Shown piece after piece: positions 44,684-62,951 of a stretch of 64,000 nucleotides of DNA (positions are counted from its first letter, which is position 1; the number at the start of each line of letters is the position of its first letter). Below the pieces are notes generated by a model that saw only the letters and a list, made by a program, of their open reading frames with translations, searched no databases and was not told where the DNA came from. Source of the DNA: Streptomyces katrae (GTDB lineage Bacteria > Actinomycetota > Actinomycetes > Streptomycetales > Streptomycetaceae); assembly GCF_002028425.1 (NCBI RefSeq), contig NZ_CP020043.1, positions 248,001 to 312,000 on the forward strand, given 5' to 3'. The position numbers were made by a program, and so were the translations under genes.

Positions 44684-44718
44684 GGTCGCCTCTCGCGTGC
44701 GGGTGTCTCCCCGATCTT

Positions 44719-45662: not shown

Positions 45663-45725
45663 GCCCGCCCCGCCCGACCCCGTACGCACGTACGCGTGTA
45701 CGACCCCGAACCGAGGAGCAAGACC

Positions 45726-46679: not shown

Positions 46680-47524
46680 CGGAGGGGACGCCCCGGGTCT
46701 GGTTCGTCACCGGTGCCTCCAGGGGCCTGGGACGGGCCGTCGCCGAGGTCGTCCTGGAGGCAGGGGACACCGTGGTCGCCACGGCCCGCCGCGTCGAGGC
46801 GCTCGACGGACTCGTCGAGCGCTTCGGCGCGCAGGTCGTCCCCATGACCCTGGACGTCAGCGACCGCGCGGCGGTGTTCGCGACCGTGGCCGAGGCCGGG
46901 GAGCGGGCCGGGCGGATCGACGTCCTGCTCAACAACGCCGGGTACGGGCTGGCCGGTGCGGTGGAGGAGGTCACCGAACGACAAGTCCGCGACCAGTTCG
47001 ACGTGAACTTCCTCGGCGCCCTGTGGACCACCCAGGCCGTACTCCCGCTGATGCGCCGCCAGGGCTCGGGCCACCTCCTCCAGATGTCCAGCATCGCGGG
47101 CGTGACCACGTACCCCAACCTGGGCATGTACTGCGCCAGCAAATGGGCCTTGGAGGCGATGGGCGAGACCCTGGCCCGGGAGGTCGCCGGCTTCGGGATC
47201 AAGGTCACCCTGATCGAGGCCGGCGAATTCCGCACCGAGTGGAGCGCGAGCTCCCTGGTGCGGGCCACGCCCAAGACCGCCTACGACACCGTGCTGGCCC
47301 AGCGCCGGCACGGACTGTCGGGTGCCTTCGCCCACCTCCAGCCCGGCGACCCGCGCCGGGCCGGGGTGGCGTTGCTGAAGCTGCTGGAGGCCGATGAGCC
47401 CCCACTCCGCCTCCTCCTGGGCGCCAGTGCGGCCGACCGCGCCCCGGCGGTGCTGCGCGAGCGGCTGGCCGGCTGGGAGGAGTGGGCCCCCCTGGCCCCG
47501 ACGACGGACTTCCCGCCGGCCTGA
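46676..47524 (+). CDS. short-chain dehydrogenase/reductase, tailoring
   Basis: 282 aa, classical SDR with TGASRGLG near residue 12, NNAGYGLAG near 88 and [11 protein letters not shown] near 152; translationally coupled to ARO/CYC 2. It is of the longer oxidoreductase type with a C-terminal extension. The likely role is a second ketoreduction or a late tailoring step on the aromatic polyketide; its substrate is not visible from sequence. It converges on metK with only 28 bp between the stops and no hairpin. Confidence 0.88.
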
Positions 47525-47552
47525 GCCCCTGGCGCCCTGACCCCCTGGAGCC

Positions 47553-48761
47553 CTAGAGACCGGCCGCGGCGCGCAGGGCGTCGGCGCGGTCCGTGCGCTC
47601 CCAGGTGAAGTCGGGGAGCTCGCGGCCGAAGTGGCCGTAGGCGGCGGTCTGCGCGTAGATCGGGCGCAGCAGGTCCAGGTCGCGGATGATGGCGGCCGGG
47701 CGGAGGTCGAAGACGCTGGAGACCGCCTCCTGGATCCGCTCGTCGGGCAGGGTGCCGGTGCCGAAGGTCTCCACGAAGAGGCCGACGGGCTCGGCCTTGC
47801 CGATCGCGTACGCGACCTGCACCTCGCAGCGGGCCGCGAGGCCGGCGGCGACGACGTTCTTGGCGACCCAGCGCATCGCGTACGCCGCCGAGCGGTCCAC
47901 CTTCGACGGGTCCTTGCCCGAGAAGGCACCGCCGCCGTGACGGGCCATACCGCCGTAGGTGTCGATGATGATCTTGCGGCCGGTCAGGCCTGCGTCGCCC
48001 ATCGGGCCGCCGATCTCGAAGCGCCCGGTCGGGTTGACCAGCAGCCGGTACCCCTCGGTGTCCAGCTTGATGCCCTCGGCGGCCAGCTGCCCGAGCACGT
48101 GCTCGACGACGAACTCCCGGATGTCCGGGGTGAGCCGCACCTCCAGTGCGATGTCGGCGGCGTGCTGCGTGGAGACCACGACCGTGTCGAGCCGGACCGG
48201 CTTGTCCCCGTCGTACTCGATGGTGACCTGCGTCTTGCCGTCGGGCCGCAGGTAGGGAACGATCGCGCTCTTGCGCACCTCGGACAGGCGCCGGGACAGC
48301 CGGTGCGCGAGGTGGATCGGCAGCGGCATCAGCTCGGGGGTCTCGTCGCAGGCGTAGCCGAACATCAGACCCTGGTCGCCCGCGCCCTGCCGGTCGAGCT
48401 CGTCGCCCTCGCCCTCCACCCGCCGCTCGTACGCCGTGTCGACGCCCCGCGCGATGTCCGGGGACTGCGCGCCGATGGACACCGAGACGCCGCAGGAGGC
48501 GCCGTCGAAACCCTTGTTGGACGAGTCGTAGCCGATCTCCAGGATCTTGTCGCGGACGAGCTGGGCGATCGGCGCGTACGCCTTCGTCGTCACCTCACCC
48601 GCGATGTGGACCTGGCCGGTGGTGATCAGGGTCTCCACGGCCACGCGCGAGGTCGGATCCCGTCGCAGCAGCGCGTCGAGGATGGTGTCGCTGATCTGGT
48701 CGGCGATCTTGTCGGGGTGGCCCTCGGTCACGGACTCCGAGGTGAAAAGACGACGGGACAT
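47553..48761 (-). CDS. metK: S-adenosylmethionine synthetase
   Basis: 402 aa from ATG 48761 with a perfect AGGAGG. Starts [16 protein letters not shown]; further motifs [20 protein letters not shown] and [16 protein letters not shown] are those of MetK. It makes SAM from methionine and ATP. A candidate SARP site in its own promoter suggests a cluster-dedicated or cluster-boosted copy. No methyltransferase is visible in the window, so the user of the SAM should lie outside it. Confidence 0.97.
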
Positions 48762-48821
48762 GCGGCTTCCTCCTGTGTAGGCCCGGTGCACGGCCCTGTG
48801 CACGGCCGGAACCGCGACGCT

Positions 48822-48849
48822 CCCCGACCGCCCTGGAGCCGCGCTCGAA
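48822..48849 (-). promoter_or_regulatory. candidate SARP site, metK promoter
   Basis: Minus strand TTCGAG, CTCCAG and a weaker TCGGGG at 11-bp steps, about 61-88 bp upstream of the metK ATG. The first two 11-mers agree at 8 of 11 positions. No SAM-riboswitch-like leader is apparent. Confidence 0.58.
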
Positions 48850-48873
48850 CGCGGCGGACGCCCGGGCCGCGGT

Positions 48874-49662
48874 TCAGACCGCCGCGCTCGCCGCGACCCG
48901 GTCGCCGCGGGCCGGGCTCAGGAGCCGCCCGTGCAGCCGCTTGAGCTCCGCGGAGGGCTCCAGGCCCAGTTCCTCGGCGAGCAGCCGGCGCACCTTCTGG
49001 TAGGCCTGCAGGGCCTCCGCGCGGCGGCCGGCGGCGCCGAGGGCGCCGATGAGCCGGCTGTGGAACCACTCGTTGAGCGGGTAGTCGTTGATCAGCTTGC
49101 GCAGCTCCGGTATGGACTCGCGGTGCCGGCCCAGCGCCTCCTGGGCCTCGATCCGGGTCTCGAACGCCCTGATCCGCAGCTCCTCCAGGTGCACGATGTG
49201 CCCGGCGAGCACGTCGCCGGCGGGGAAGTTCGACAGGGCCGGCCCGCGCCACAGGTCGAGCGCCTGGCCGACCGTGCGCAGCGCCCGCTGCGGCTCCTCC
49301 TCAGCCAGTTCGTACCGGGCCCGGGTGACCAGCCGCTCGAAGATCCGTACGTCGACCTCGGAGTCCTCGACGCGCATCACGTACCCGGACGGGCCGGTGA
49401 CGATCAGGCAGCGGCCGGCGGGCGCGAGCTGCTCCTGGGTGAACATCCGGCGCGCGTGGTAGACGTACGTCTGGAGCGTGGTGACGGCACTGCGCGGGGG
49501 GTTCTCGCCCCACAGCTCCCGGATCAGGGCCTCGGCCGTGACGACCTCGCCGGGCCGGGTGAGCAGCAGCGCGAGCGTCTGGCAGACCTTGGGGGTGCCC
49601 GGCTCGTAGGTCCGGCCGTCGTCGGTGACGATCTCGAAGGGGCCGATGAGATTGAAGCGCAT
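48874..49662 (-). CDS. SARP-family pathway-specific transcriptional activator
   Basis: 262 aa from ATG 49662. Residues 1-95 form the OmpR-like winged helix ([19 protein letters not shown], then [27 protein letters not shown]) and 95-255 the BTAD tetratricopeptide domain ([40 protein letters not shown]). This is the short ActII-ORF4/RedD type that activates antibiotic promoters by binding direct repeats overlapping the -35 region. It is the only regulator in the window and the natural reader of the 11-bp repeats listed here. The 272-bp gap upstream holds its promoter and the terminator of the indigoidine operon. Confidence 0.94.
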
Positions 49663-49860
49663 GGAAGATGACTCCTCATCAGCGAGAAGAGCAAAAAAAA
49701 CAGGACGGCTGGAATCAATAGAAGTGTCTTGTGTAGGGAATGTGCACGTCAACGGCGGCGATGTCAGAACGCGGTCAAGCTGCGTCAGAATTGAGCCACC
49801 TACTGGCCGGTTTTTCCTCCACCGCCGAAAAGCATCCGGAAAACAGCCGAAAAACACGAA

Positions 49861-49904
49861 AGGACGGCCGCCCCGCCGGAATTCTCCGGCGGGGCGGCCG
49901 TCCT
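49861..49904. terminator. perfect 44-base palindromic terminator after the indigoidine synthetase gene
   Basis: 20-bp arms (49861-49880 / 49885-49904) pair without mismatch around GAATTC. It lies 31-74 bp beyond the NRPS stop on the minus strand and isolates the upstream operon from the SARP gene. Confidence 0.85.
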
Positions 49905-49934
49905 CATTCGGGCCGCTCTCCCTTACTCAGGCAC

Positions 49935-52900
49935 TCACTCGCCGAGCAGGTAGCGGATGTGCTTGACCAGCTCGCCGATGTCCTCGCGCAGCAGGCTGTA
50001 GTGGTCGGCGTCGAGGTCGATGACCGTCGGCGGCTCGGCCGAGTAGCCGCTGCTGTTCTCCAGGAACGAGTAGTCGTCGCCCACGGCCTTGAAGATGCTG
50101 ATCGGCGCCTGGAGCGTGCGCTCGGCCAGCTCGTGGAAGCTGTACTCGAATTCGTAGGTCTGGCCCACGACCGAGATGATCCGGCGGGCCAGCTCGACGT
50201 CGATCCCCTTGAGTTCGCTGATGAACTCGGCGAAGGACGCCTCGTCCGTCACCGTCTCCAGGCACCGGTCCAGGTCCGGACCGGAAATCGTGCCGGTGAA
50301 GACGGAGAAGAGGATCGTGGTGTAGCCGCGGTTGGCGAAGGACGCCTCACGGCCCCACACCTTGCCGTTCTCGGCGCGCACCTTCGGGGAGCCCGGGGCG
50401 ATCAGGAAGAGGTTGTCCACCTTCTCGCCCGCCTGCTCCAGCTGGTAGGCCGTCTCGAAGGCGACACGGGCACCGAAGGAGTAGCCCCACAGGGTGTAGG
50501 GGCCGGCCGGCTGGATCTCCTTGAGGGCCTCGATGTCCTTCTTGGCCATCTCGGTGATGGTCTCGTACGGGGTCTCGCCCTCGTTGATGCCGTAGGACTG
50601 GACGCCGTAGAACGAGCGGCCGAGGCCGATCTCGCCGGCCAGGCTGCGCAGGTTCATCGGGTAGCCGCCCAGACCCGGCCAGCAGATCACGGGCCGGGCC
50701 TTGCCGGTCTCCGCGTGCAGGCGGACGAAGCGCGAGGACTCCTGGGCGACCTCGCGCTCCAGGCGGCGGGCCAGCTTCTCGATGGTCGGGGACTCCAGGA
50801 CGCTCTGCAGCGGCAGGGAGACACCCAGGCGGGAGTTGAGCTCGCGCACCAGGCCGACGGCGATCAGCGAGTTGCCGCCCGACTCGAAGAAGTCGTCCTG
50901 GACGGAGGCGTTCTCGCGGCGCAGGGCCTTCTCCCAGACGCCCGCGATCTCCTTCTCCGTCTCCGTGCGCGGGGCGACGAAGGGGCGCTCCACGAGCTCG
51001 GCGTTGACCTGGTCGGAGGCGGCGAGCGCCTTGACGTCGATCTTGCCGTTGGCGGACAGCGGCAGCCGCTCGAAGACCACGACCCGGTTGGGGATCATGT
51101 AGTCCGGCAGGAAGCTGACGAGGTCGTCGCGGATGAGCTCGGCCGGACCGCGCATGTGGACGCTGTCCTCACGCATGCCCTCGTGGCTGACCTGCTCGTC
51201 GCTGATGCGGCCGCCGACGAAGAAGTACATCGGACCGCTCTCGACGCCGTTCGCGGCCAGGACCGCGTCCATGCGGCGCGAGGCCGGCAGCGGGTTGCCC
51301 GTCTTGGAGCTGTAGCCGGAGGACATGAAGCCCAGGTTCAGCCCGTTCATCATCAGGTGCTGGAGCTTCTTGCCGAGGGTGACGTACTTCAGCCACTCCT
51401 CCTCGGCGCGGCTGTAGACGCTGATGCCGAAGCTGGCGGCCTGGTACACCGACTGGTTGATCGCGATGACGTGCTTCTTGAGGACGATGTCGTCCGAGAA
51501 GCGGGTCAGCTCGCCGTTCTCGTAGCGGTACTGGCCCTCGGGCAGGCCGGCGATCTTGTTGCCGTGCGTCTGGACGTAGACCTCGGCGTGGTCCTCGCGC
51601 GGGCCCGCGTGCGGGACCAGCTCGAAGGTGCCCAGGTAGTAGTCCTCCTCGGCGACGTCGAGCAGGTCCTTGACGGCCGGCTCGTAGGCGCGGTCGTGGA
51701 TGTCCAGGCCGTAGGCCGGCAGGATCTGCTCGAAGAGGCCGACCATGTGGCCGGTCTCGATCTCCAGGACCTCGACGATGTTGTTCTTGTAGACCGGCTC
51801 GATGCCGCTCTTCTTGCCGATGAAGTGGATCTGCGCCGTCGGCTTGCCGGTGGCCTCGCGCTCGCTGATGAGCACGAGCTGGTGGCGGACCGGCTGGTAG
51901 TAGTAGTAGCCCGGCTTGAGACCGCCGACGCCCTCCAGCTCGAAGTACATCTGCGTCGCGTACAGCGCGCCCGGGGAGGCGTAGCCGTACTTCGGCAGCA
52001 GGCGCTCCTCGCTGATGTACTGGCCGAACCAGCGCAGGATCTGGCCGAGCTCGGCGGGGGCCAGGTCGGCCGCCTTGCGCGAGTAGCCGGCGGTGACCGT
52101 GGCGCCGAGCAGGCCGAGGAGGTCGGCCTGGGTGACGGGGCCGCCCTCGTAGAAGCGGTACGTCTTGCGGGCGAAGACGCGGGCGCGCTGCTCGGGGGTG
52201 GGCTCGGAGCCCTCCAGGTCGAAGGCCGGGCGGGCGGCCAGCTCGGCGTCGTCGCGCAGGCCCGGGTTGGACAGCTGCGCCTTGACCTGGAGCTTGCTCT
52301 TCTTCGACGCGTGGTGGGAGCCGTGGTTGCCCTGGTCCATCAGGGCGGCTTCCTTCTCGCTGAGCTCGATGCAGGCGATCAGGTTCTGGAAGCCGGTGCG
52401 GCCGTCATTCTTGACGATGACGGCGGCGTTGCGGACCCAGTCGTGGTTCTCGATCGCCAGGGAGATCTCGTCGAGCTCGACGCGGTAGCCGCGCAGCTTG
52501 ACCTGGTTGTCGGCGCGGCCGGCGAACTGCACCGTGCCGTCGGCGTTCCACTGGCCGAGGTCGCCCGTCTTGTACAGGCGGACGGGCTCGGCGCCCTCCT
52601 CCAGCTCGATCTCCAGGAAGCGCTCGGCGGTCAGGTCCTCGCGGTGCAGGTAGCCGCGGGCCAGCTGGATGCCGCCGATGTACAGCTCGCCTATCTCCCC
52701 CACGCCGACCGGCTTGAGGGTCTCCTTGTCGAGGATGTGGTACGTGGTGCCGTGCACCGGGGAGCCGATGGAGATGGACTGCGGTCCCTCGTCCAGGTCG
52801 GCGGGGTCCACGGGGAACGAGGACGAGTTGATCGTCGTCTCGGTCGGCCCGTAGACGTTGATGAGCGCCCGGCCGGGCATCTCCTGCGTGGTCTGGATCG

Positions 52901-53783
52901 CCAGCAGCCGGGAAAGGGCCTCGCCACCGCTGAAGATCTGCTGGAGGGAGACGCACTCGGGGAACTTCTCGGTGTCGAGCAGGCCCTGGAGCAGGGTCGG
53001 GACGCACTGGAGGGTGGTCACGTTGTGCTTGACGATGGTCTCGATGAGGCCCTCGGGGTCGGCGTAGACGCCGGGGGCGCCCATGACGACGGTGGCGCCG
53101 TTGGCCGGGGAGAGGATCTCCCACTGGGCGGCGTCGAAGCTCATCGGGGTCTTCTGCAGGATCACCTTGCTGCGGTCGATCGCGTAGGTCTCGCGCAGCC
53201 AGCCGAGCTGGTTGACGATGCTGCGGTGCTCGATCATCACACCCTTCGGCTTGCCCGTGCTGCCGGAGGTGTAGATGACGTACGCGAGGGTGTCCGGGCG
53301 GGCGCCGCCGGCGGCCGGGGCCTCCCGGCCCTCCGGGCGGACGAAGGCCTCGGACTCGCGCAGGGTCACGATGGTGACGTCCTGCGGGGCGAGTTCGCGC
53401 AGGCGCGAGACCAGGCGCTGCTGCGCCAGGATGATCTTCGCCTGGCTGTTCTCGATCATGTAGCGGAGCCGGTCCTCGGGGTACTCCGGGGACAGCGGCA
53501 GGTAGGCGGCGCCGGCATTGAGGATGCCCCAGGCGCCGACCATGAGGTCGATGGACGGCTCGACGAACAGGCCCACGCAGTCGTCCGCGGAGACACCGAG
53601 GTGCTCCAGGTAGTCGGCCAGGGCCGAGCTTCTGGACGCGAGCTCGCGGAAGGTGAGCTTGTCGTCCCGGTAGGCGACCGCGATCGCGTCGGGGTGCTCG
53701 GCCACACGCTGAGCGAGCAGGCCGGGCAACGTGTTGGTCCCCTGCAGGGTGGGCTCGAGCACGCTGGTCTCCTGAAGAGTCAT
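49935..53783 (-). CDS. indC: indigoidine synthetase-type NRPS (A-Ox-T-TE)
   Basis: 1282 aa, exactly the length of Streptomyces BpsA/IndC. Adenylation core motif YTSGSTGKPKGV near residue 170, GDLGQW near 407 and PLSANGKID near 910. An FMN oxidase domain (about 535-850, RKTYRFYEGG to GPMYFFVGGR) is inserted between A8 and A10. Carrier serine in GGNSLIAVGL near 970; thioesterase serine in WGYSFGARVA near 1100. The enzyme activates, oxidises and cyclises L-glutamine to an aminopyridinedione, which dimerises to blue indigoidine or enters C-nucleoside pathways such as minimycin. A PsuG-type gene in the same operon favours a C-nucleoside branch. Confidence 0.97.
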   Translation of the reverse strand: MTLQETSVLEPTLQGTNTLPGLLAQRVAEHPDAIAVAYRDDKLTFRELASRSSALADYLEHLGVSADDCVGLFVEPSIDLMVGAWGILNAGAAYLPLSPEYPEDRLRYMIENSQAKIILAQQRLVSRLRELAPQDVTIVTLRESEAFVRPEGREAPAAGGARPDTLAYVIYTSGSTGKPKGVMIEHRSIVNQLGWLRETYAIDRSKVILQKTPMSFDAAQWEILSPANGATVVMGAPGVYADPEGLIETIVKHNVTTLQCVPTLLQGLLDTEKFPECVSLQQIFSGGEALSRLLAIQTTQEMPGRALINVYGPTETTINSSSFPVDPADLDEGPQSISIGSPVHGTTYHILDKETLKPVGVGEIGELYIGGIQLARGYLHREDLTAERFLEIELEEGAEPVRLYKTGDLGQWNADGTVQFAGRADNQVKLRGYRVELDEISLAIENHDWVRNAAVIVKNDGRTGFQNLIACIELSEKEAALMDQGNHGSHHASKKSKLQVKAQLSNPGLRDDAELAARPAFDLEGSEPTPEQRARVFARKTYRFYEGGPVTQADLLGLLGATVTAGYSRKAADLAPAELGQILRWFGQYISEERLLPKYGYASPGALYATQMYFELEGVGGLKPGYYYYQPVRHQLVLISEREATGKPTAQIHFIGKKSGIEPVYKNNIVEVLEIETGHMVGLFEQILPAYGLDIHDRAYEPAVKDLLDVAEEDYYLGTFELVPHAGPREDHAEVYVQTHGNKIAGLPEGQYRYENGELTRFSDDIVLKKHVIAINQSVYQAASFGISVYSRAEEEWLKYVTLGKKLQHLMMNGLNLGFMSSGYSSKTGNPLPASRRMDAVLAANGVESGPMYFFVGGRISDEQVSHEGMREDSVHMRGPAELIRDDLVSFLPDYMIPNRVVVFERLPLSANGKIDVKALAASDQVNAELVERPFVAPRTETEKEIAGVWEKALRRENASVQDDFFESGGNSLIAVGLVRELNSRLGVSLPLQSVLESPTIEKLARRLEREVAQESSRFVRLHAETGKARPVICWPGLGGYPMNLRSLAGEIGLGRSFYGVQSYGINEGETPYETITEMAKKDIEALKEIQPAGPYTLWGYSFGARVAFETAYQLEQAGEKVDNLFLIAPGSPKVRAENGKVWGREASFANRGYTTILFSVFTGTISGPDLDRCLETVTDEASFAEFISELKGIDVELARRIISVVGQTYEFEYSFHELAERTLQAPISIFKAVGDDYSFLENSSGYSAEPPTVIDLDADHYSLLREDIGELVKHIRYLLGE

Positions 53784-54094
53784 TTCCCGCTTCCTAACGT
53801 TCCGTTGTGGAGCACGGGCGCGGTCAGCGCCCCGGCTGCCGGGCTCCCGGTGCGGGCGAGCCCGGCGGACGACGCCTCACCGCGAAGCGTGGGGGGTGGC
53901 GTCCGCACGGGGCGGACGCCGCTTCGAACGCGGTGGGTGCCGGTGGCCGGGCTGCAGCCCGGCCGGGAAGTACCGAAGAACTGAGGGGCGCAAGGGCAAA
54001 GCCTCACCACCCGGAAAGACCGGAACGGCGCGGTGCGTGCGGCCGCCTCCCCCTTCGGACGGACGGGCCCCGTGGGACCCGTCCGCCCGGGCGA
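53784..54094 (-). promoter_or_regulatory. 311-bp leader between prs and the indigoidine synthetase gene
   Basis: No credible gene. It contains a candidate SARP pair on the minus strand (TTCGAA 53928-53923, then GTCCGC 53917-53912, 11 bp apart), an overlapping hairpin GGCGTCCGC/GCGGACGCC (53898-53906 / 53912-53920) and the prs terminator near 54061-54084. The NRPS gene may thus have its own promoter about 130 bp upstream of its ATG. Confidence 0.45.
54061..54084. terminator. possible terminator after prs
   Basis: GGACGGG and CCCGTCC form a 7-bp stem around GCCCCGTGGGA-type loop sequence, just beyond the prs stop at 54095 on the minus strand. Moderate strength; readthrough to the NRPS is possible. 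Confidence 0.45.
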
Positions 54095-55054
54095 TCACCG
54101 GCTCTGCAGGAGCCGGGTTACTGATCCGTTCTCGAACACCGCGCGCGAGGCGCCCGCGATGAGCGGGGCGATGGACAGGACGGTGACCTTGTCCAGTCCG
54201 AGGGCCCCGGGCACCGGCAGGGTGTCCGTGAACACGAACTCGCTGACCCGCGAGTTCTTGAGGCGGTCCGCCGCGGGGCCGGAAAGCACCCCGTGCGTGG
54301 CCGCCACGATGACGTCCCTCGCCCCCTGGGCGAAGAGGGCGTCGGCGGCGGCACAGATCGTGCCGCCGGTGTCGATCATGTCGTCGACCAGGACGCAGAC
54401 CCGGTCGTGCACGTCGCCGACCACCTCGTGGGCGGTGACCTGGTGGGCCACGTCCTTGTCGCGCCGCTTGTGGACGATGGCCAGCGGAGCGCCGAGGCGG
54501 TCGCACCAGCCGTCGGCCACGCGCACGCGGCCGGCGTCGGGCGAGACCACGGTCAGGGCCTCGCGGTCCACCTTGGAGCCGATGTAGTCCGCGAGGACCG
54601 GCATGGCGAACAGGTGGTCCACCGGGCCGTCGAAGAATCCCTGGATCTGGTCCGCGTGCAGATCGATCGTCAGGATCCGGTCGGCGCCGGCGGTCTTGAG
54701 CAGGTCCGCCACCAGGCGGGCCGAGATGGGTTCCCGGCCGCTGTGCTTGCGGTCCTGTCGCGCGTATCCGTAGAAGGGCAGGATGACCGTGACGCTGCGC
54801 GCCGAGGCCCGCTTCAGCGCGTCGATCATGATGAGCTGTTCCATGATCGACTTGTTGATGGGGGCCGTGTGGCTCTGGACCACGAAGCAGTCCGCGCCGC
54901 GCACGGAGGCGTGGTAGCGGATGTAGATCTCGCCGTTGGCGAAGTCGATCGCCTTCGTCTCGACCAGCTCCGTGCCCAGCTCCGCCGCGATGGCCTCGGC
55001 CAGCTCGGGGTGCGCGCGCCCCGAGAAGAGCAGCATCTTCCCGGAGTCGCTCAC
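54095..55054 (-). CDS. prs: ribose-phosphate diphosphokinase (PRPP synthetase)
   Basis: 319 aa from GTG 55054, overlapping the stop of the flavin reductase (GTGA). Motifs: flexible-loop KRRDKD near residue 195, PRPP site VDDMIDTGGTI near 223, ATP site FYGYARQDRKH near 100. It converts ribose 5-phosphate and ATP to PRPP. A dedicated copy within a pathway operon is notable: it shares the ribose-phosphate pool with the PsuG-like and UPRT genes nearby, and could supply PRPP for the resistance UPRT or for a phosphoribosyl intermediate. Confidence 0.96.
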   Translation of the reverse strand: MSDSGKMLLFSGRAHPELAEAIAAELGTELVETKAIDFANGEIYIRYHASVRGADCFVVQSHTAPINKSIMEQLIMIDALKRASARSVTVILPFYGYARQDRKHSGREPISARLVADLLKTAGADRILTIDLHADQIQGFFDGPVDHLFAMPVLADYIGSKVDREALTVVSPDAGRVRVADGWCDRLGAPLAIVHKRRDKDVAHQVTAHEVVGDVHDRVCVLVDDMIDTGGTICAAADALFAQGARDVIVAATHGVLSGPAADRLKNSRVSEFVFTDTLPVPGALGLDKVTVLSIAPLIAGASRAVFENGSVTRLLQSR

Positions 55055-56127
55055 GCGGCGCTCTCGAGCGTCGGGTAGTCGGTGTAACCGGTGTGGTCAC
55101 CACCGTAGAACTTGCTCTGGTCGGCCTCGGCCAGAGCGGCGCCGGTGCGGATGCGCTCCGGCAGGTCCGGGTTGGCGATGAAGGACGACCCGAAGGCCAC
55201 GGCGCAGGCGACGCCGGCCTCGAGCGCCGCCTCGGCGATCTCGCCGCTGACCGGGACGCCGTTCTCCGGGTGCGGGCACAGCACGATGGTGCCGGTCCAC
55301 TGCGCGCGCAGGGCCGCGATGTGGTCGCGGTTGCCGCCCTCGAGGATGTGCAGGAAGGCGATGGGCGGCAGGGCCGCGACGAGCGCCTCGTAGATGGCGT
55401 GCGTGTCGCCCTCGACGATGTCGTTGTACGGGTTCGACGGGGAGATGCGCACGCCGACGCGGTCGGCGCCGATGCGCTCGGAGACCGCCTCGATCACCTC
55501 GATCGCGAAGCGGATGCGGTTCTCGACGGAGCCACCGTACTGGTCGGTGCGCTGGTTGGTGTTCTCCGCCAGGAACTGGTGGAGCAGGAAGCCGTTGCCC
55601 GCGTGGATCTCCACGCCGTCGAAGCCGGCCTCGATGGCGAGCTCGGCGGCGTCCGCGTGCTCCTTGACGACCTCGGCGATCTCCTCGACCGTCAGGGCGC
55701 GCGGCTCGGGGTAGTCCAGCGGGCCCTCGGGGCCGTAGGCCTGGCCGGCCGCGGTGACGGCGGACGGGGCGACGGACTGGTGGCCGCTCGGGTAGAGCGA
55801 GGGGTGGCCGATGCGGCCGCAGTGCATGAGCTGCGCGACGATCAGACCGCCGTTCGCGTGCACGGCCTCGGTGACCGGCTTCCAGGACTCGGCCTGCTCC
55901 TGGGTGTGCAGACCCGGGCTGTTGCCGAAGCCCTGACCGGTGACCGAGGGCTGGACGCCCTCGGTGATGATCAGACCGGCGCCCGCGCGCTGGCCGTAGT
56001 AGGTGGCCATCAGGTCGGTGGCGAGGCCATCGGCGGTGGCCCGGTTGCGGGACATGGGCGCCATGACGACCCGGTTGCGCAGGGCCAGCTTGCCCAGGGT
56101 GACCGGCGCCAGCAGCTTCTCGGACAT
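55051..56127 (-). CDS. Old Yellow Enzyme-family ene-reductase (NADH:flavin oxidoreductase)
   Basis: 358 aa. FMN barrel motifs: MAPMSRNRA near residue 22, QLMHCGRIGHP near 98, substrate pair in EIHAGNGFLLHQFL near 178 (His and Asn), NQRTDQYGGSVENR near 197. It resembles the NemA/xenobiotic reductase class, which reduces activated C=C bonds such as those of maleimides. In this operon it could reduce the heterocycle derived from the aminopyridinedione, or detoxify a reactive intermediate; both are inference. It sits 59 bp behind the PsuG-like gene. Confidence 0.93.
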   Translation of the reverse strand: MSEKLLAPVTLGKLALRNRVVMAPMSRNRATADGLATDLMATYYGQRAGAGLIITEGVQPSVTGQGFGNSPGLHTQEQAESWKPVTEAVHANGGLIVAQLMHCGRIGHPSLYPSGHQSVAPSAVTAAGQAYGPEGPLDYPEPRALTVEEIAEVVKEHADAAELAIEAGFDGVEIHAGNGFLLHQFLAENTNQRTDQYGGSVENRIRFAIEVIEAVSERIGADRVGVRISPSNPYNDIVEGDTHAIYEALVAALPPIAFLHILEGGNRDHIAALRAQWTGTIVLCPHPENGVPVSGEIAEAALEAGVACAVAFGSSFIANPDLPERIRTGAALAEADQSKFYGGDHTGYTDYPTLESAA

Positions 56128-56186
56128 GTGTGTGTCTCTCCAGACTGAGTTCAACGCGTGGTGCGGTGGTGGTTCGTACGGGCGGG

Positions 56187-57131
56187 TCAGCGCCCGGCGC
56201 GCTCGGCGAGGTGCGCGGCGTGCGCCACGGCCAGCCGGCCCGCCGCCTCGGCGCAGGAGGCGAGGACGGCCATGTTGGCCTTGGCGCTGCGGCCGTCGGT
56301 GGCGGCGTCGACGGCGCGCATCAGGTACTTGGTGATGGCCTGGCCGGAGACCCCGTCGCGGGTGGCCTCGGCGACCGCGGCCCGGATGGCCGTGTCCACC
56401 TCGGCGGAGTCGATGGCGTCCTCCTCCCGGACCGGGGTGGTGATCAGGAAGGAGCTGTTGTTGCCGAGCGCCCAGTGGGCCTCGACGGCGCGGGCGATGA
56501 CCTGTTCGTCGTCCAGGCGGTGGGGCGCCTTGTGGCCGCTCGTACGGCAGTAGAACGCGGGGAAGTCGTCCGAGCGGTAGGCGACGACGGGGACGCACTG
56601 CGTCTCCAGGTACTCCAGGGTCAGCCCGAGGTCGAGGATCATCTTGGCGCCGGCGCAGACCACGGCGACCTTGGACCGGGTGAACTGGATCAGGTCCGAG
56701 GAGACGTCCCAGGTCTCCTGGGCGCCGCGGTGCACGCCGCCGATGCCGGCGGAGGAGAAGAAGGGGATCCCCGCGAGCTCGGCCGCCACGACGGAGGAGG
56801 CCACCGTGGTGGCGCCCAGGCCGCCCTGCGCCAGGATGACGGGCAGGTCCCGGCTGGACACCTTGGGGATGTCCGGGAGGGAGGCGAAGCGCTCGATGTC
56901 GGCGTCCGACATGCCGACGCGGATCTCGCCGGCCTCGATGCAGATCGTCGCCGGGACGGCGCCCCCGGCCCGTACCGCGTCCTCCACCTTGCGGGCGGTG
57001 GCCGCGTTGTCCGGGTAGGGCAGGCCGTGGGTGATGACGTTGCTCTCGAGGGCGACGACGGCCTTGCCCTCGTGGAGGGCCTCGCGGACTTCCTCGGTGT
57101 AGACGACGGGGATGCCGCTGCTTGCGCTCAT
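56187..57131 (-). CDS. indA: pseudouridine-5'-phosphate glycosidase-like C-glycosynthase (IndA/MinB type)
   Basis: 314 aa PsuG fold. Conserved elements: [14 protein letters not shown] near residue 27, [14 protein letters not shown] near 130 with the following WDVSSDL aspartate, and lysine in CAGAKMILD near 160. Two usual motifs differ: the C-terminal TPxLL region reads AITKYLM, and the NN pair near residue 290 reads SC. PsuG breaks or makes the C-C bond between uracil and ribose 5-phosphate. Homologues in indigoidine, minimycin, showdomycin and alnumycin clusters act as C-glycosynthases. Next to an indigoidine synthetase it most likely joins ribose 5-phosphate to a glutamine-derived ring. It lies 10 bp behind the tautomerase gene. 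Confidence 0.93.
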
Positions 57132-57141
57132 CGGGTCTCTC

Positions 57142-57375
57142 TCAACTCTCGTTCAGGTAGCCGGGTCGCTTGACCAGCAGATCCGGGCGGGCCGCTATCT
57201 CGGAGAGGACCTGGGACTCCCAGTCCTCCGGGCCGACCGGCTCCAGGGAGATCGAGACGGCGTCCTCGCCGGTGGCGAAGGTCTTCGTCACGGCGGCGGT
57301 GACCGCCTCGTCGATCGCCTTGAGCTGCTCGGCCGTGAAGTCCCGCGGGTAGTGCCAGATGTGGATGTGGGGCAC
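57142..57375 (-). CDS. 4-oxalocrotonate tautomerase-family protein, PptA-like
   Basis: 77 aa from GTG 57375 with GAGAGGA upstream. After Met removal Pro-1 would be the N-terminus (PHIHIW), as the family needs for catalysis. The rest ([37 protein letters not shown]) resembles E. coli PptA. Such enzymes shift keto-enol or double-bond positions. First gene of the tautomerase-psuG-OYE-prs run, so it may tautomerise the aminopyridinedione before or after C-glycosylation. Confidence 0.88.
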
Positions 57376-57414
57376 CGCTGGGTCCTCTCGCGAGTCGTTC
57401 GTGCAGGGGGGGTT

Positions 57415-57454
57415 GGTGGCACACCGCGGACGGGGGAGGCCGCGGTGTGCCACC
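57415..57454. terminator. perfect 15-bp hairpin upstream of the tautomerase gene
   Basis: GGTGGCACACCGCGG and its exact complement around a 10-base G-rich loop. Together with the next hairpin it follows the EamA stop (57515, minus strand), so it probably ends that transcript before the tautomerase-psuG operon. Confidence 0.75.
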
Positions 57455-57458
57455 ACCA

Positions 57459-57495
57459 CTCCCCGCCCGCCTCGGGGGCGGGGGCGGGCGGGGAG
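57459..57495. terminator. GC-only hairpin after the exporter gene
   Basis: CTCCCCGCCCGCC (57459-57471) pairs perfectly with 57483-57495, 20 bp beyond the EamA stop on the minus strand. Confidence 0.75.
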
Positions 57496-57514
57496 TCTCG
57501 GGCGGGGTCCCGGC

Positions 57515-58432
57515 TTACGCCTGGACGGATTCCCGCGAGGTCTGTGGGACCGGCTCTGCTTGGGGCTTGGGCTTGCCCTTGCGCGGCTGGGCCAGGATCA
57601 CGGACGCGACCACGGTCAGGGCTCCGAGGAGCTGGATCGGCGAGAGCGACTGGTCGAGGACGAAGTAGCCCAGCAGCGTGGCCGCCAGGGGCGAGGCGAA
57701 GCTCAGGAACGACACCGCCAGCGCGGGCAGCCGGGCCACACCGCGGAACCAGATCGCGTAGGCGAACAGGGCGCCGACGAGGCCGAGGTAGGCGAAGCCC
57801 AGCAGGTTCTTGCCGGTGATCTCGCTCGGCAGGCCCTCGCCGATCAGTGCGATCGGGAGCAGGACCAGGCCGCCGACGGTGAGCTGCCAGCCGGTGAAGG
57901 GCAGCAGGCCCACGCCTTCGGGACGTCCCCAGCGCTTGGTCAGCACGATGCCGGAGGCCATGCTGAGCGCGCCCAGCAGACCGGCGATGACACCGGTGGC
58001 GTTGAGCCCGGCGTTGGGCTGGAGGACCAGCAGGGCCACGCCGGCCGCGCCGAGGGCGCAGGAGATCAGGTGGATCGCCTTGATCTTGTCCTTCAGCAGG
58101 GCGGCACCGAGCAGGAGCACGATCATCGGCTGGATGGACATCACCAGCGCCGCGACGCCGCCCGGCAGGTGGTAGGCGGCCACGAAGAGCAGGTAGAAGA
58201 AGGCGCCGATGTTCAGCACGCCGAGCACCAGGGCGCGCCACCACCAGATGCCCTTGGGCAGCGTCCGGCCGATGGCCACGAGGATCAGGCCGGCGGGAAG
58301 GGCACGGAGCAGGGAGGCCAGCAGCGGCCGGCCCTGCGGCAGCAGCTCCGTGGTGACCAGGTACGTGGACCCCCAGATGGCCGGCGCGAGGGCCGTCAGC
58401 GCGGAGTCGACAACGGTACGGCTGCTCTTCAT
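57515..58432 (-). CDS. EamA/DMT-superfamily exporter
   Basis: 305 aa with ten predicted membrane segments in two EamA repeats (WGSTYLVTTELLP near residue 20; second repeat from GVIAGLLGALSMA near 150). Start ATG 58432 overlaps the UPRT stop (ATGA). RhtA/YdcZ-type members export amino acids, nucleoside analogues and small metabolites. Coupled to a UPRT gene, it is best read as export and self-resistance for the nucleoside product. Confidence 0.92.
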   Translation of the reverse strand: MKSSRTVVDSALTALAPAIWGSTYLVTTELLPQGRPLLASLLRALPAGLILVAIGRTLPKGIWWWRALVLGVLNIGAFFYLLFVAAYHLPGGVAALVMSIQPMIVLLLGAALLKDKIKAIHLISCALGAAGVALLVLQPNAGLNATGVIAGLLGALSMASGIVLTKRWGRPEGVGLLPFTGWQLTVGGLVLLPIALIGEGLPSEITGKNLLGFAYLGLVGALFAYAIWFRGVARLPALAVSFLSFASPLAATLLGYFVLDQSLSPIQLLGALTVVASVILAQPRKGKPKPQAEPVPQTSRESVQA

Positions 58433-59097
58433 CAGGCGACTGCCGAGTCGGTGGTTCCGAAGTAGCGGTCGCCGAAGTCGCCGATGCCCGGGATCATGAA
58501 CGCGTTCTCGTTGAGGCGCTGCTCGATCGAGGACGTGACGATCTTGACGAGCGGGTACGCGGCGTGGACGGCCTCGATGCCCTCGGGGGAGGCGAGGAAG
58601 TTGACGAAGACGATGTTCCCCTCCTGCACGCCGGAGTCGAGGAGGACCTCGATGGCGGCCTTGGCGCTGCCGCCGGTGGCGAGCATCGGCTCCAGGAGCA
58701 GGACGTGCCGGTCGGCGATGTCCTCGGGGAAGTTCTTGTAGTACAGGTGCGGGAGCTTGGTGGTCTTGTCCCGCTGGATGAGCAGCTTGCCGACGGTGAT
58801 GTCGGGGATGACCTGGCGCAGCTCGTCGAGCATCGAGTCGCCGGCCCGGACCACGGGCACGGCGCACAGCTGGGGGCCGAGTCTCAGGCCCTCGTACGTC
58901 TCTCCGACCGGCGTGATGGCCTCGTGCTGGTCGAACGGCAGCTGGTTGAGCGCCGATTCGAGCAGGAGGCGGATGATGCGCCGGGAGTAGAACACGAAGT
59001 CCGCGCGGGAGGCTCTGCGGTCACGGATGATCGTGTGCATGGCGCGGAGCTGGTTGGTCTGCGGCAGCGGGTGGACATTGTGGTGGCCGGTCGCCAT
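58432..59097 (-). CDS. upp: uracil phosphoribosyltransferase
   Basis: 221 aa. PRPP site LLEPMLATGGSAKAA near residue 135, uracil loop GIGDFGDRYFGT near 205. The N-terminal half (MHTIIRDRRASR, LLLESALNQLPF) is like the eukaryotic-type enzyme rather than the shorter bacterial Upp, so it is probably not the housekeeping copy. It makes UMP from uracil and PRPP. As I recall, the UPRT of the minimycin cluster (MinD) takes part in self-resistance; a similar role fits here, with PRPP from the clustered prs. Confidence 0.94.
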   Translation of the reverse strand: MATGHHNVHPLPQTNQLRAMHTIIRDRRASRADFVFYSRRIIRLLLESALNQLPFDQHEAITPVGETYEGLRLGPQLCAVPVVRAGDSMLDELRQVIPDITVGKLLIQRDKTTKLPHLYYKNFPEDIADRHVLLLEPMLATGGSAKAAIEVLLDSGVQEGNIVFVNFLASPEGIEAVHAAYPLVKIVTSSIEQRLNENAFMIPGIGDFGDRYFGTTDSAVA

Positions 59098-59195
59098 GAG
59101 AAACCTGCTTCTCGTCGGTCGTGGAGACGTGCTGCGGCCGGGCCCGGGGCCCCGCGGGGCCCCGGGAACCGCAACCGTGTGGTCGGGTGCCGGGA

Positions 59196-59885
59196 TCAGC
59201 CGTTGGCGATCTCGGCGAAGGCCTTCCGCGACTCGGCCACGAACTTCGCGACCTTGGCGCGGTCCTTGCGGCGGTCGTCGCCCTCCAGGAGGCTGTGGGC
59301 GTCGACGGCGGCGGGCTTGACGAAGCGGATCGCGTCGGCGACGTTCTCCGGGCTCAGGCCGCCCGCCATCATCAGGGGCTTGGGGGAACGGCGCACGAGC
59401 TCGGCGCTGACGTTCCAGTCGTGGGTGAGGCCGGTGGCGCCCTTGGCACCGGTGGCCGGGTTGAAGGTGTCGGTGATGAACATGTCCACGAACTCGGCGA
59501 CCTCGTCGACGAACTGGAGGAGCTCCTCGGCGTTGTCCTCCTTCACGACCAGGCTCTTGAGCACGTAGAGGTCGGGGCGGTCGGCCTTGAGCTTGCGCAG
59601 CTGCTCCGGCTCGACGTCGCCGTGGAGCTGGACGGCCTTGACGCCCAGCTGCGTGGTGAACGCGCTGATCTCGTCGGCGTCCACCATGTAGCTGATGAGG
59701 ACGCCCTCCTGGGGAGCCGTCAGGCCGGCGATGATCTCCGTGGCCGCGGCCTCGGAGATGTCGTCCTTGCCCGACGGGAGGCGGAGCGGGAAGCCGAACC
59801 AGTCGACGCCCTCCTCGGCCAGCATCTTGGCCTCCTCGGCGTCGATGATGCCGGCGACCTGCACCAGGTCCTTCACGTCACTCAT
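59196..59885 (-). CDS. phosphoribosylanthranilate isomerase (TrpF)-like protein lacking catalytic Cys
   Basis: 229 aa TIM barrel of the TrpF family: VQVAGIIDAEEA near residue 8, VQLHGDVEPEQ near 88, ITDTFNP and GATGLTHDW near 140-155, MMAGGLSPENV near 172, VDAHSLLEG near 193. In TrpF the first strand reads KxCGIT with the general-base Cys; here it is VAGI, with Ala. The general-acid Asp (DTF) and phosphate-binding Gly stretches remain. It probably binds a phosphoribosyl compound but is not a normal Amadori isomerase of tryptophan biosynthesis. No other trp gene is near. A palindromic operator-like repeat precedes it. Confidence 0.85.
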   Translation of the reverse strand: MSDVKDLVQVAGIIDAEEAKMLAEEGVDWFGFPLRLPSGKDDISEAAATEIIAGLTAPQEGVLISYMVDADEISAFTTQLGVKAVQLHGDVEPEQLRKLKADRPDLYVLKSLVVKEDNAEELLQFVDEVAEFVDMFITDTFNPATGAKGATGLTHDWNVSAELVRRSPKPLMMAGGLSPENVADAIRFVKPAAVDAHSLLEGDDRRKDRAKVAKFVAESRKAFAEIANG

Positions 59886-59908
59886 GTGTGTTCCTTTGCG
59901 GAATGATC

Positions 59909-59940
59909 TGATGAATCAAACAGTTTGATGAATCAAACAG
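59909..59940 (-). promoter_or_regulatory. tandem operator-like repeat upstream of the TrpF-like gene
   Basis: Two exact 15-bp copies of TGATGAATCAAACAG (59909-59923, 59926-59940; period 17). The second lies in TTTGAT-GA-ATCAAA, a perfect inverted repeat. It is strikingly AT-rich for this window and starts 24 bp before the TrpF-like ATG, so it may be a repressor operator for the TrpF-like/UPRT/exporter operon. No regulator gene of that kind is in the window. Confidence 0.65.
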
Positions 59941-60046: not shown

Positions 60047-60961
60047 CTATGTCAGATCCCGGTCAACCTTCTTCATTTCCCGGTCAGTTGTGGCCGAGAC
60101 CCGCTCCGTCCCCGGCTCCCGGGCGAGTAGGCACTCCTCCAGGAAGGCCATGACCCGCAGGTGGTAGGAGCGGGAGGCCCAGCCCAGACTGGTGTTGTGT
60201 CCAGCATGGGGCTGGATGACCAGTTCTGTGGAGGCCCCGGTCAGCGGACTCAGCAGTTCCTCCAGCGCCGCGCCGTCATACCTCCACCACAGCTCCTGTT
60301 CGGCGAAGGTGAAGCGCACCGGGGCCCGTACGCCGGCGGCCACGGCGGGGTACATGTGCGGCCACAGCGGGGTCTCGCGGGCCTCCTCGGCGGGAACCGG
60401 GCACACCAGGCCGGTGCAGGCCCGGAAGGCCTCCGGCGGGTAGAAGCGCAGCGCGCCCCAGTGCCGGCGCCACTGGCCGGGGAAGTCCGTCCCGGGCAAC
60501 TGCCCTGGCTCCACGGCGAAATGGCGCCCGACACCGCACAGGTCCACGCCCAGCGGCGCGGTCCGGCCCCGGGCGGCGGCCGCCGCGGACAGCGCGAGGC
60601 GGCCGCCATTGGAGTGCGCCACGAGGAAGAAGCCCGCGCCGGTCTCGTGCCCCCGGGCGTACCCGTCGAGGGCGGCGAGCAGGACGCCGGTCTGCCCGGC
60701 GAGGTCCAGCCCCCGGGGCAGCGGGTCCGCGGAGGCCCCGTAGCCGGGCCGGTCCAGGGCGAGGACGGCGAAGCCCAGCGAGGCGCCGAGCTCCAGCAGG
60801 GAGAAGCCGGGCCGCACCCGGCTGTCGAAGTAGCCCGCCCTCATCCCCGCCCCGTGCAGCGCCACCACCACGGCCCGCGGCACGGGGTCCGCGGGCAGCG
60901 CGAGCAGCCCGGACAGCGGGATCCCGTCCGCGTCGAGGACGACGGGCCGCACGGCGGTCAT
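60047..60961 (-). CDS. alpha/beta hydrolase
   Basis: 304 aa. Oxyanion region LHGAGMRAGYF near residue 36, nucleophile elbow VAHSNGGRLA near 115 and histidine HAGHNTSLG near 265. No signal peptide or membrane segment. It is not a thioesterase of the usual PKS type; an esterase, lactonase or polyketide cyclase-like role is possible. It ends the minus-strand run that begins with the carrier protein and follows the SnoaL-like gene by 7 bp. Confidence 0.85.
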   Translation of the reverse strand: MTAVRPVVLDADGIPLSGLLALPADPVPRAVVVALHGAGMRAGYFDSRVRPGFSLLELGASLGFAVLALDRPGYGASADPLPRGLDLAGQTGVLLAALDGYARGHETGAGFFLVAHSNGGRLALSAAAAARGRTAPLGVDLCGVGRHFAVEPGQLPGTDFPGQWRRHWGALRFYPPEAFRACTGLVCPVPAEEARETPLWPHMYPAVAAGVRAPVRFTFAEQELWWRYDGAALEELLSPLTGASTELVIQPHAGHNTSLGWASRSYHLRVMAFLEECLLAREPGTERVSATTDREMKKVDRDLT

Positions 60962-60968
60962 CCGCCGC

Positions 60969-61466
60969 TCACAGGCGGACGCCCGCGAGCTCGGGCAGCC
61001 GGACGCCGGAGTCCCACACCACGCGGAACGAGACGTGGCTCAGCCGCCAGCCGTCCGCCGTGCGCACGGCACGGGCCTCGGTGTGCCCGCCCACGTCGAA
61101 GTGGGCGGCCGGACCCGCGCCGGCGTGGTGGACGTGGGTGGTCACCTGCTGGGCCCGGACGACGGCCCGGTCTCCGTCGAGGGTGATGGAGTGGTTGGCG
61201 CTCACGTGGTGCGTGCGCGCCCACCGGCCCCGGGCCTCGCGCTGGAGGGCGGCGAAGGCCTCGACGCCCGTGCACACGCCGATCGGGAAGGCGAAGGTGG
61301 CGCCCTCGGTGAACAGCGTGGCGAACCGGGCCTCGTCCGGGCCGGTCCCGTCGAAGGTGTCCAGGGCGGTGACGTAGCGGTCGAACAGCTCCCGCAGCTC
61401 GGCGCGGTCGCGCAGGATCCGTATCTGGTCGCGCAGCTCCGCGATGTCGTCGTAGGTCGGTGGCAT
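60969..61466 (-). CDS. SnoaL-like (NTF2-fold) protein
   Basis: 165 aa from ATG 61466 (AGGAGAG upstream). NTF2-like cone fold of the SnoaL_4 kind: LRDRAELRELFDRYVTALD near residue 20, THHVSANHSITL near 85, and the strand DGWRLSHVSFRVVW near 138. Homologues are cyclases, dehydratases or steroid-isomerase-like enzymes in polyketide pathways. Its substrate is unknown. The 188 bp upstream (61467-61654) hold no gene I can support. Confidence 0.85.
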   Translation of the reverse strand: MPPTYDDIAELRDQIRILRDRAELRELFDRYVTALDTFDGTGPDEARFATLFTEGATFAFPIGVCTGVEAFAALQREARGRWARTHHVSANHSITLDGDRAVVRAQQVTTHVHHAGAGPAAHFDVGGHTEARAVRTADGWRLSHVSFRVVWDSGVRLPELAGVRL

Positions 61467-61654
61467 GGCCCTCTCCTGTGGGCGGACTCACGGGATACCG
61501 CGGTCTGGAGCGTCCGCCCGCGAACTCCTTGACCGGGCCGGCGACGGGGCCGGCCGTCCACGAGGGCCGCGGGGGGCCACGGCCCCGGGTGGTGTCCTGT
61601 CGGACCGGGCCGGATCCGGCCGGGCGCGGGTGGCGCGGCCGGATCGCGGCCGGA

Positions 61655-61894
61655 TCAGGCCGGGCGCGTCCCGGCGGGGTTCTCCCGCCAGGTGCGCGCG
61701 CCGTGGAAGGCCCGGGGCTGCTGTGGGCAGCGCCAGCCCGCCAGGGTGGGCCCGCAGCCGGCCGTGCCGCCGTGCTGGCCCTCGTACGCCGCCGCCCGGG
61801 CCAGGACGACGGCGGTGAGCGCCGCCAGTTCCTCGGCGTCGGGCCGCCCCTTGACCACGTGGATGAGGCGGCCGGCCTCCGGATGCGTGTCCAT
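61655..61894 (-). CDS. accE: acyl-CoA carboxylase epsilon subunit
   Basis: 79 aa with GAGGAG before ATG 61894. The pattern IHVVKGRPDAEELAALTAVV, then RAAAYE and a Trp/Pro-rich tail (GWRCPQQP), is that of the small epsilon subunit of actinobacterial acyl-CoA carboxylases. It would bind a carboxyltransferase beta subunit and raise malonyl- or methylmalonyl-CoA formation. The alpha and beta subunits are not in the window, so it must act with partners elsewhere. Confidence 0.85.
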   Translation of the reverse strand: MDTHPEAGRLIHVVKGRPDAEELAALTAVVLARAAAYEGQHGGTAGCGPTLAGWRCPQQPRAFHGARTWRENPAGTRPA

Positions 61895-61977
61895 GGACTG
61901 CTCCTCGTCTCGTGACCTCCCGCCGGCCTTCGGCGCGGCGGGTCTGACGTGCGTGCGGCGGGGATGGGGCGGGCCGG

Positions 61978-62928: not shown

Positions 62929-62951
62929 CCGGTCACGTCCTTACTTGCGGT

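Follow-up and report, generated by a model that had tools for sequence, protein, structure and literature searches.

Gene Content and Organization of the Locus

The window considered here, i.e., the whole stretch of 64,000 nucleotides from Streptomyces katrae (contig NZ_CP020043.1, positions 248,001 to 312,000), is part of a contig of 348,805 bases in a Streptomyces genome of 8.06 Mb and three contigs, and the gene order around it resembles that of the linear plasmid pSA3239. Between positions 49,935 and 59,885, it carries a group of eight genes, including an indigoidine-type nonribosomal peptide synthetase (NRPS), which probably represents a branch of the indigoidine–minimycin family where a C-ribosylated nucleotide is processed by a TrpF-like protein instead of a phosphatase. 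All on the minus strand and starting from the TrpF-like end, these genes encode: a TrpF-like protein of 229 aa with the fold of phosphoribosylanthranilate isomerase (PRAI) (59196..59885; PF00697, 74 bits; PRAI matches in the PDB; alignments of 24 and 46 family members); a uracil phosphoribosyltransferase (UPRT; 58432..59097; PF14681, 257 bits; PDB matches), MinD-like in its proposed role; an EamA-family exporter of 305 aa (57515..58432; PF00892); a 4-oxalocrotonate-type tautomerase with Pro-1 (57142..57375), which matches YdcE and reaches 69 bits with NF002324 (cut-off 83) and 19.8 bits with PF01361 (cut-off 22); a PsuG/IndA/MinB-type C-glycosynthase (56187..57131; PF04227, 372 bits), assigned also from its catalytic residues and its tree; an alkene reductase of the old yellow enzyme (OYE) family, similar to N-ethylmaleimide reductase (55051..56127; PF00724, 270 bits; NF007899, 324 bits for a cut-off of 403; PDB matches); the phosphoribosyl pyrophosphate (PRPP) synthetase Prs, or ribose-phosphate diphosphokinase (54095..55054; NF002844, 548 bits, over the cut-off); and the A(Ox)-T-TE NRPS of 1282 aa (49935..53783), identified from its open reading frame (ORF), Pfam and motifs.

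An earlier note on this DNA had described these eight genes as a minus-strand set within 10 kb, which is confirmed by ORF calls, a check of the starts and Pfam and NCBIfam searches of the window, all eight being intact and in one orientation. The intergenic gaps are short, with overlaps between UPRT and EamA and between OYE and Prs, the largest gap (311 bases) preceding the NRPS. The tautomerase begins with GTG followed by Pro, and an alternative reading of 105 aa from position 57459 is likewise open. The group is closed by an intrinsic terminator-like element with a 20-pair stem (49860..49905, minus strand), directly past the NRPS stop, and the five relatives aligned with the window all preserve this stem, some of its positions being G-T pairs and one a compensated pair (judged by eye). 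Directly upstream of the TrpF-like start lie two copies of TTTGATTCATCA(A/G)A (59907..59937, minus strand), a possible operator that has three matches at no more than two mismatches in the window vs. 0.02 expected. Since the repeat is doubled only in the window and S. katrae among the six aligned sequences, a conserved upstream operator was rejected.

Sequence Features of the Encoded Proteins

The TrpF-like protein shares the sequence family of PRAI (TrpF) and was aligned with two solved PRAIs in a set of 46 sequences (the window, 42 loci and three added loci). The AGGL (GGL) loop is retained in the family and so is, in 46/46 sequences, the catalytic Asp126 (Asp139 in the window; residue 124 by numbering on 1dl3, the chain of which is two residues shorter than 1lbm), whereas Cys7 is replaced by Ala (46/46; Ala11 in the window), Arg36 by Asp or Glu (46/46; Asp41 in the window) and the DVSS of the second loop by DAH or DSH. 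In PRAI, we take Cys7 to be the catalytic base, Arg36 the contact for the anthranilate carboxylate, Asp126 the catalytic acid, and the loops, including the second one (DVSSG), to bind phosphate. Because Cys7 and Arg36 are replaced throughout, the TrpF-like protein is not an ordinary PRAI, and a PRAI for tryptophan was rejected on the loss of the catalytic Cys. Further polar residues, among which Arg35, Asp42, Tyr66, Lys148 and His197, are invariant across the family (46/46).

The NRPS shows the motifs YTSGSTG (at 171), GGNS (at 969) and GYSFG (at 1100), while its Ox domain, which has no Pfam family match, is assigned from an insert between the parts of the A domain and from similarity to annotated relatives; read in this way, it is a single-module A-Ox-T-TE synthetase like those of indigoidine clusters (BpsA/IndC). 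It is 89–95% identical to the NRPS of the five best plasmid records but only 53–56% identical to those of the nearest HAD-type PsuG relatives, hence it was probably exchanged in the lineage of the window, which fits its odd position at the end of the gene group. As for the tautomerase, which the earlier note had counted as an extra gene along with TrpF-like, OYE and Prs, this idea was rejected, since it corresponds to the Tau domain that MinA-type synthetases carry. Its counterpart is fused to, or beside, the NRPS in most relatives, and by sequence it appears to be the free-standing equivalent of this domain and a normal part of the pathway, whereas TrpF-like, OYE and Prs do stand out as a distinct tailoring set. 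Both arrangements of the tautomerase, fused to the synthetase and separate, are known from indigoidine clusters (PMC12766979).

PsuG retains the Lys that is Ala in chain 4gim (VCAGAK), as well as the Glu and the Asp of the aligned motifs. For the conserved Asp, a role is presumed. Those of Lys166 and Glu31 follow PMC7722734, where open-chain ribose 5-phosphate forms an iminium with a Lys before elimination and closure of the ring complete the coupling. The genome of the window contains a second PF04227 gene (C1:2050611, 41% identical to the cluster PsuG) and a second UPRT (C1:4041704). The cluster UPRT reaches 231–234 bits with PDB entries 7rh8, 1upf and 1bd3 vs. at most 134 bits with the other nine UPRT sequences found; we assume that 1upf and 1bd3 represent the enzyme of a eukaryotic parasite.

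Distribution of the TrpF-like and HAD Genes

A PsuG scan of genome contigs yielded 175 confirmed matches, the best 80 of which, by PsuG similarity, were kept as loci. The tblastn queries run against them were the eight proteins of the window plus the two parts, HAD and DUF4243, of a min-like MinC, the thresholds being bit scores set by us (e.g., >80 bits for the flavin mononucleotide (FMN) reductase). These 80 and chosen additions make up a final set of 99 distinct loci, in which L121, covering a longer part of the same genome, stands in for L102; L119 (repeating L034), L122–L124 (repeating Microbispora loci) and L126 (a further full copy) stand outside it.

PsuG and NRPS occur together in 81 of the 99 loci, where a TrpF-like gene is found 45 times and an IndB-type HAD gene 34 times, with both in one locus and neither in three, so that the absence of MinC/IndB and the addition of a TrpF-like gene, both pointed out in the earlier note, are systematic. 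The 80-locus subset gives similar figures (TrpF-like in 42, HAD in 36, both in one, neither in three; Fisher p 4.9e-18, kinship ignored). Its three loci with neither gene are L102, which has a TrpF-like gene 14 kb from PsuG (seen in L121), and L062 and L091, the contigs of which end close by; in the 99-locus set, they are L062, L091 and L120, the latter on a complete plasmid. The sole locus of the 99 with both genes is L100 from Rhizocola hellebori (10924 and 18190), where the TrpF-like gene lies 7 kb beyond UPRT. DUF4243 occurs in 17 loci, all with HAD. PsuG is found without NRPS in four loci (two TrpF-like, two HAD). The PsuG group is unlinked in L094, L099, L084 and L098 (Kitasatospora, Spongiactinospora), and NRPS-free PsuG clusters were rejected because the NRPS is present elsewhere in all four genomes. 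Finally, 14 loci have the NRPS without PsuG (13 from 16 regions chosen among 45 NRPS matches, one from a plasmid; flanks of 1.7–12 kb, with only 1.7 kb on one side in L135). None of them carries TrpF-like, HAD, OYE, Prs or an intact UPRT, in agreement with a link between UPRT and the PsuG branch.

Among the 47 TrpF loci, OYE is present in 18 and an FMN reductase (PF03358) in 14, never both, while 15 have neither; Prs is found in 21/47 (absent from 26) vs. 0/36 HAD loci. The latter include three loci with OYE (Lentzea; opposite strand, 46–49% identity) and two with FMN reductase (Spongiactinospora). The TrpF-like gene is directly upstream of UPRT in 44/47 TrpF loci, and in S. microflavus JCM 4496 (L078, 3651–5066) the two form a single in-frame fusion. 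Many TrpF-type loci, of the L042–L057 type, add an alpha/beta hydrolase, a DJ-1/PfpI protein and a mycothiol-dependent nitroreductase (Rv2466c-like), additions that suggest an electrophilic or quinone-like product.

On the PsuG tree, the TrpF label requires seven changes, at least five of them forced by starred branches (eight changes with L102 scored), and a single clade for the TrpF rows is rejected (p-AU 1.2e-52). Moreover, S. antimicrobicus, S. bambusae, WAC06614 and G-G2 have HAD loci that are nested in a clade of TrpF loci containing the window. The NRPS tree (FastTree) requires ten changes, six of them forced, with a long-branch warning. These label changes on both trees indicate that the HAD and TrpF-like genes repeatedly replaced one another. 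PsuG of the cluster type groups with loci beside an NRPS, including the IndA of Dickeya.

Searches with the TrpF-like query alone (E ≤ 1e-45) matched 9 of 295 Streptomyces genomes, all nine among the 42 matching the NRPS (1e-100; two of the 42 by a partial match only). Eight of these nine matches lie at most 6 kb from the NRPS, and the ninth is on another contig of a 240-contig assembly. Within the class of the window, 4/394 genomes matched, namely the window's own and three more in whose loci the cluster is present; within that of the Shewanella locus, the only match (1/274) is the seed itself. On plasmids, the best nine of 28 records come from Streptomyces (three), Agrobacterium vitis (three) and Corynebacterium (three), and the two that were opened (one of A. 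vitis, one of C. aurimucosum) both carry the cluster; 19/28 records hold distant homologues (31–37% identity), and the two examined have other contexts. A search of the open-access literature found no description of the HAD/TrpF exchange, while a PRAI homologue beside an indigoidine-like NRPS is mentioned in PMC2830990.

Natural deletions help to partition the gene group. In the same plasmid setting as the window, NBC_00158 has UPRT, EamA, tautomerase, PsuG, Prs and NRPS without TrpF-like and OYE, and W1SF4 keeps only EamA, tautomerase and NRPS, without TrpF-like, UPRT, PsuG, OYE and Prs. In another Streptomyces genome (L127), EamA, NRPS and a UPRT fragment are kept, without TrpF-like, PsuG, OYE, Prs and tautomerase. 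These cases delineate a pigment core (EamA and NRPS, mostly with the tautomerase), a ribosyl set (PsuG, UPRT and Prs) and a further pair (TrpF-like and OYE).

Comparison with Known Clusters

The whole span aligns with pSA3239 of S. lavendulae CCM 3239 over 100% of its length at 89.8% DNA identity, and the comparative search advised in the earlier note recovered the full set of eight genes in unchanged order in L033–L036, pSA3239 and NBC_01276, which makes the grouping more than chance. On the CCM 3239 plasmid, genes for indigoidine, a blue pigment, lie inside the auricin cluster and interrupt it, according to a 2023 paper under which the strain was formerly filed as S. aureofaciens (PMC10409956), and the indigoidine cluster of S. 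aureofaciens is MIBiG BGC0000727 (PMC12766979); the latter source and the shared strain are our basis for equating the pSA3239 locus with BGC0000727. The gene set is thus already catalogued as an indigoidine cluster, whereas the roles of its non-NRPS genes, including PsuG, TrpF-like, OYE and Prs, are not explained in the passages of PMC10409956 and PMC12766979 that deal with it. It follows that the "probable new C-nucleoside pathway" of the earlier note does not correspond to a new cluster and stays a proposal as to its product, even though the genomic evidence supports C-ribosylation of a glutamine-derived ring. The near flanks of pSA3239 are those of the window (alpha/beta hydrolase, NTF2/SnoaL-like protein, SARP); the differences lie in the second operator-like repeat of the window and in the polyketide genes beyond the flanks, which are partly different.

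Downstream of the NRPS, the SARP-type regulator (48874..49662, minus strand; PF03704, 163 bits) is present in three of the four annotated plasmid relatives examined (CCM 3239, NBC_01276 and W1SF4, not NBC_00158) and is an unproven candidate member of the pathway. Type II polyketide genes flank the cluster (window 40981–49662 and 60047–63743), as on the auricin plasmid: a ketosynthase pair, a DegT aminotransferase, two short-chain reductases, a cyclase, an acyltransferase, a phosphopantetheinyl transferase, which could prime the NRPS, a SAM synthetase and the SARP. Further away (window 231–24787), long plus-strand ORFs of a modular polyketide synthase stop roughly 25 kb short of the cluster; among them, the middle ORF (6728–18469) contains two ketosynthase/acyltransferase/dehydratase/ketoreductase/carrier sets and one enoyl-reductase-like stretch.

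In the minimycin cluster of S. hygroscopicus JCM 4712, MinA is the ring-making enzyme and carries the Tau domain responsible for the tautomer, MinB attaches the sugar, MinC-C and MinC-N account for rearrangement and dephosphorylation, and MinD and MinT for protection (PMC8724604). The window similarly has a predicted glutamine NRPS, a Tau function, a PsuG of the MinB type and a UPRT (MinD), together with an EamA transporter as a possible counterpart of MinT (vs. an MFS gene in the min-like locus L079), but it lacks MinC (HAD + DUF4243), its Tau is free-standing, and TrpF-like, OYE and Prs are added. The HAD/DUF4243 partner, reported as missing in the earlier note, is not found genome-wide either: PF14027 (DUF4243) has no match in the genome of the window, and the best match to an IndB-type HAD is 31% identical (65.6 bits). 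The PF14027 search was positive in three of seven genomes, strongly in two that carry DUF4243 in the cluster and weakly (28.7 bits) in S. chumphonensis. A minimycin cluster was rejected on the absence of MinC, which supports the view, already put forward, that the product is not minimycin.

Compared with indABC/indC clusters, the window PsuG, likewise accompanied by an NRPS, is 67–68% identical to two Dickeya IndA proteins and 75% identical to that of S. albidoflavus NRRL B-1271. The indC cluster of S. albus J1074 includes a tautomerase, a transporter and a phosphoribosyltransferase (PMC3992020). Unlike the window, Dickeya indABC and the indC clusters of S. albus J1074/S. albidoflavus have an IndB-type HAD and are without TrpF-like, OYE and Prs (L061, L105, L112; for J1074, the cluster as given in PMC3992020). 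The black-pigment locus of C. aurimucosum pET44827 shares TrpF-like (54%), UPRT, NRPS, tautomerase, PsuG and EamA, but has no OYE or Prs in the stretch; the pigment is tied to it by annotation only (PMC2830990). That this TrpF-type locus is associated by annotation with a black rather than blue pigment is compatible with a different product. We take indochromes to be C-ribosylated azaquinone pigments, for which the literature gave one passing mention, a lead that went nowhere. Showdomycin differs by its separate NRPS proteins SdmC and SdmD and its cyclase SdmE (PMC8724604), the window having one fused NRPS module.

Proposed Pathway and Alternative Explanations

From gene content, residue changes, co-occurrence and the HAD/TrpF-like exchange, we infer the following reactions and products, with a probability of about 0.6 for the interpretation as a whole, i.e., a TrpF-type branch of the IndA/IndC (indigoidine–minimycin) family in which a C-ribosyl aminohydroxypyridone 5'-phosphate is processed by the TrpF-like protein instead of a phosphatase. 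The NRPS would convert L-glutamine into 3-aminopiperidine-2,6-dione, then into an azaquinone-level monomer that dimerises to indigoidine, in line with the release of this dione by TE and its oxidation toward indigoidine by the Ox domain (PMC10989907). The free tautomerase would supply the tautomer used by PsuG, which would couple it to ribose 5-phosphate and yield the C-ribosyl aminohydroxypyridone 5'-phosphate. In IndB/MinC clusters, this nucleotide would be handled by the HAD phosphatase; here, the TrpF-like barrel, with its AGGL loop and acid Asp kept but its base and carboxylate-binding Arg lost, would act on it, probably joined by a flavin reductase, which is OYE in the window and an FMN reductase in other lineages. 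Prs and UPRT would provide PRPP and uridine monophosphate (UMP), possibly for self-protection as proposed for MinD, and EamA would export the product. This product may be made alongside indigoidine.

Several observations weigh against this interpretation. PsuG persists in NBC_00158 although HAD and TrpF-like are both absent, the losses within the plasmid lineage mean that the branch may be dispensable, and L100 holds both genes together. With 15/47 TrpF loci devoid of either reductase and 26/47 of Prs, these partners are not obligatory, and, given the DAH/DSH of the second loop, phosphate binding by the TrpF-like protein is only partly backed. Besides its weak PF14027 match, S. chumphonensis, which is of the TrpF type, has a 47%-identical HAD elsewhere in its genome, and a general host HAD phosphatase could replace IndB, as generic HADs exist. 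The locus sample consists of the best 80 of 175 matches by PsuG similarity plus chosen extras, close relatives included. Finally, in the relevant passages of PMC10409956 and PMC12766979, the only product given for the near-identical locus of CCM 3239 is blue indigoidine.

The TrpF-like protein may open the ring of the PsuG product, isomerise it or just clear away a toxic nucleotide. In a variant of the proposed pathway, possible but distinctly less probable, it would be a protection factor that binds or destroys a toxic UMP-like C-nucleotide while UPRT raises UMP, thereby replacing the detoxifying HAD domain of MinC. The tie of TrpF-like to UPRT, by adjacency and fusion, favours such a role, as does its exchange with HAD, a self-resistance phosphatase according to PMC8724604. 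However, the invariant polar residues of the family suggest catalysis, and the joint absence of TrpF-like and OYE in NBC_00158, where UPRT stays, links the TrpF-like gene to a redox step. Both this absence and the way OYE and FMN reductase take each other's place point to a reaction coupled to redox chemistry, one tentative and rather unlikely form of which is C-nucleotide ring opening: the Asp would open the ribofuranose of the PsuG product into an aza-quinone methide, the exocyclic double bond of which would be reduced by OYE or FMN reductase to give an open-chain C-linked pentitol (or ketone) phosphate on the aminohydroxypyridone.

It is doubtful that the locus is a plain indigoidine cluster in which PsuG, Prs and UPRT travel with the pigment gene as a group for salvage of pseudouridine to UMP. 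PsuG splits pseudouridine phosphate into uracil and ribose 5-phosphate, Prs makes PRPP from the latter and UPRT makes UMP, so the three enzymes would close a route. Furthermore, the pSA3239 locus is catalogued as indigoidine (PMC10409956, PMC12766979), and 14 of the 99 loci, partly chosen for that, have an NRPS but no PsuG. Yet the genome of the window has another PF04227 gene and another UPRT, the cluster type of PsuG groups with NRPS-adjacent loci and the four unlinked cases keep an NRPS in the genome, MinB, of the same type, is reported as a C-glycosynthase (PMC8724604), and salvage leaves TrpF-like, OYE and HAD unexplained.

That PsuG serves the neighbouring type II polyketide, like AlnA in alnumycin, is highly improbable and was rejected: AlnA is a PsuG homologue near the top PDB matches (256 bits vs. 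263 for 4gij) and type II polyketide synthase genes flank the cluster, but the same PsuG gene group is beside an NRPS in many lineages, an AlnB-type HAD partner is absent from the cluster and W1SF4 keeps auricin-type flanks without PsuG.

Implications for the Indigoidine–Minimycin Family

Such loci are listed in catalogues as indigoidine clusters and nothing more. The pattern described here indicates that a C-ribosylation branch, of one of two kinds, is present in many of them, and the HAD/TrpF exchange offers a simple rule for sorting them. In the window, the last member of this branch is a reshaped TrpF fold, and we found no reaction described for it. If the proposed pathway is true, a classic barrel family would gain a new enzyme activity, and new nucleotide-like metabolites would come with it, which might inhibit RNA polymerase or uridine metabolism, as minimycin does. 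Were the ring-opening step to hold as well, these metabolites would form an unknown class of indigoidine-related compounds, found across both Actinomycetota and Pseudomonadota, where their branch and that of the phosphatase could stand in for each other.

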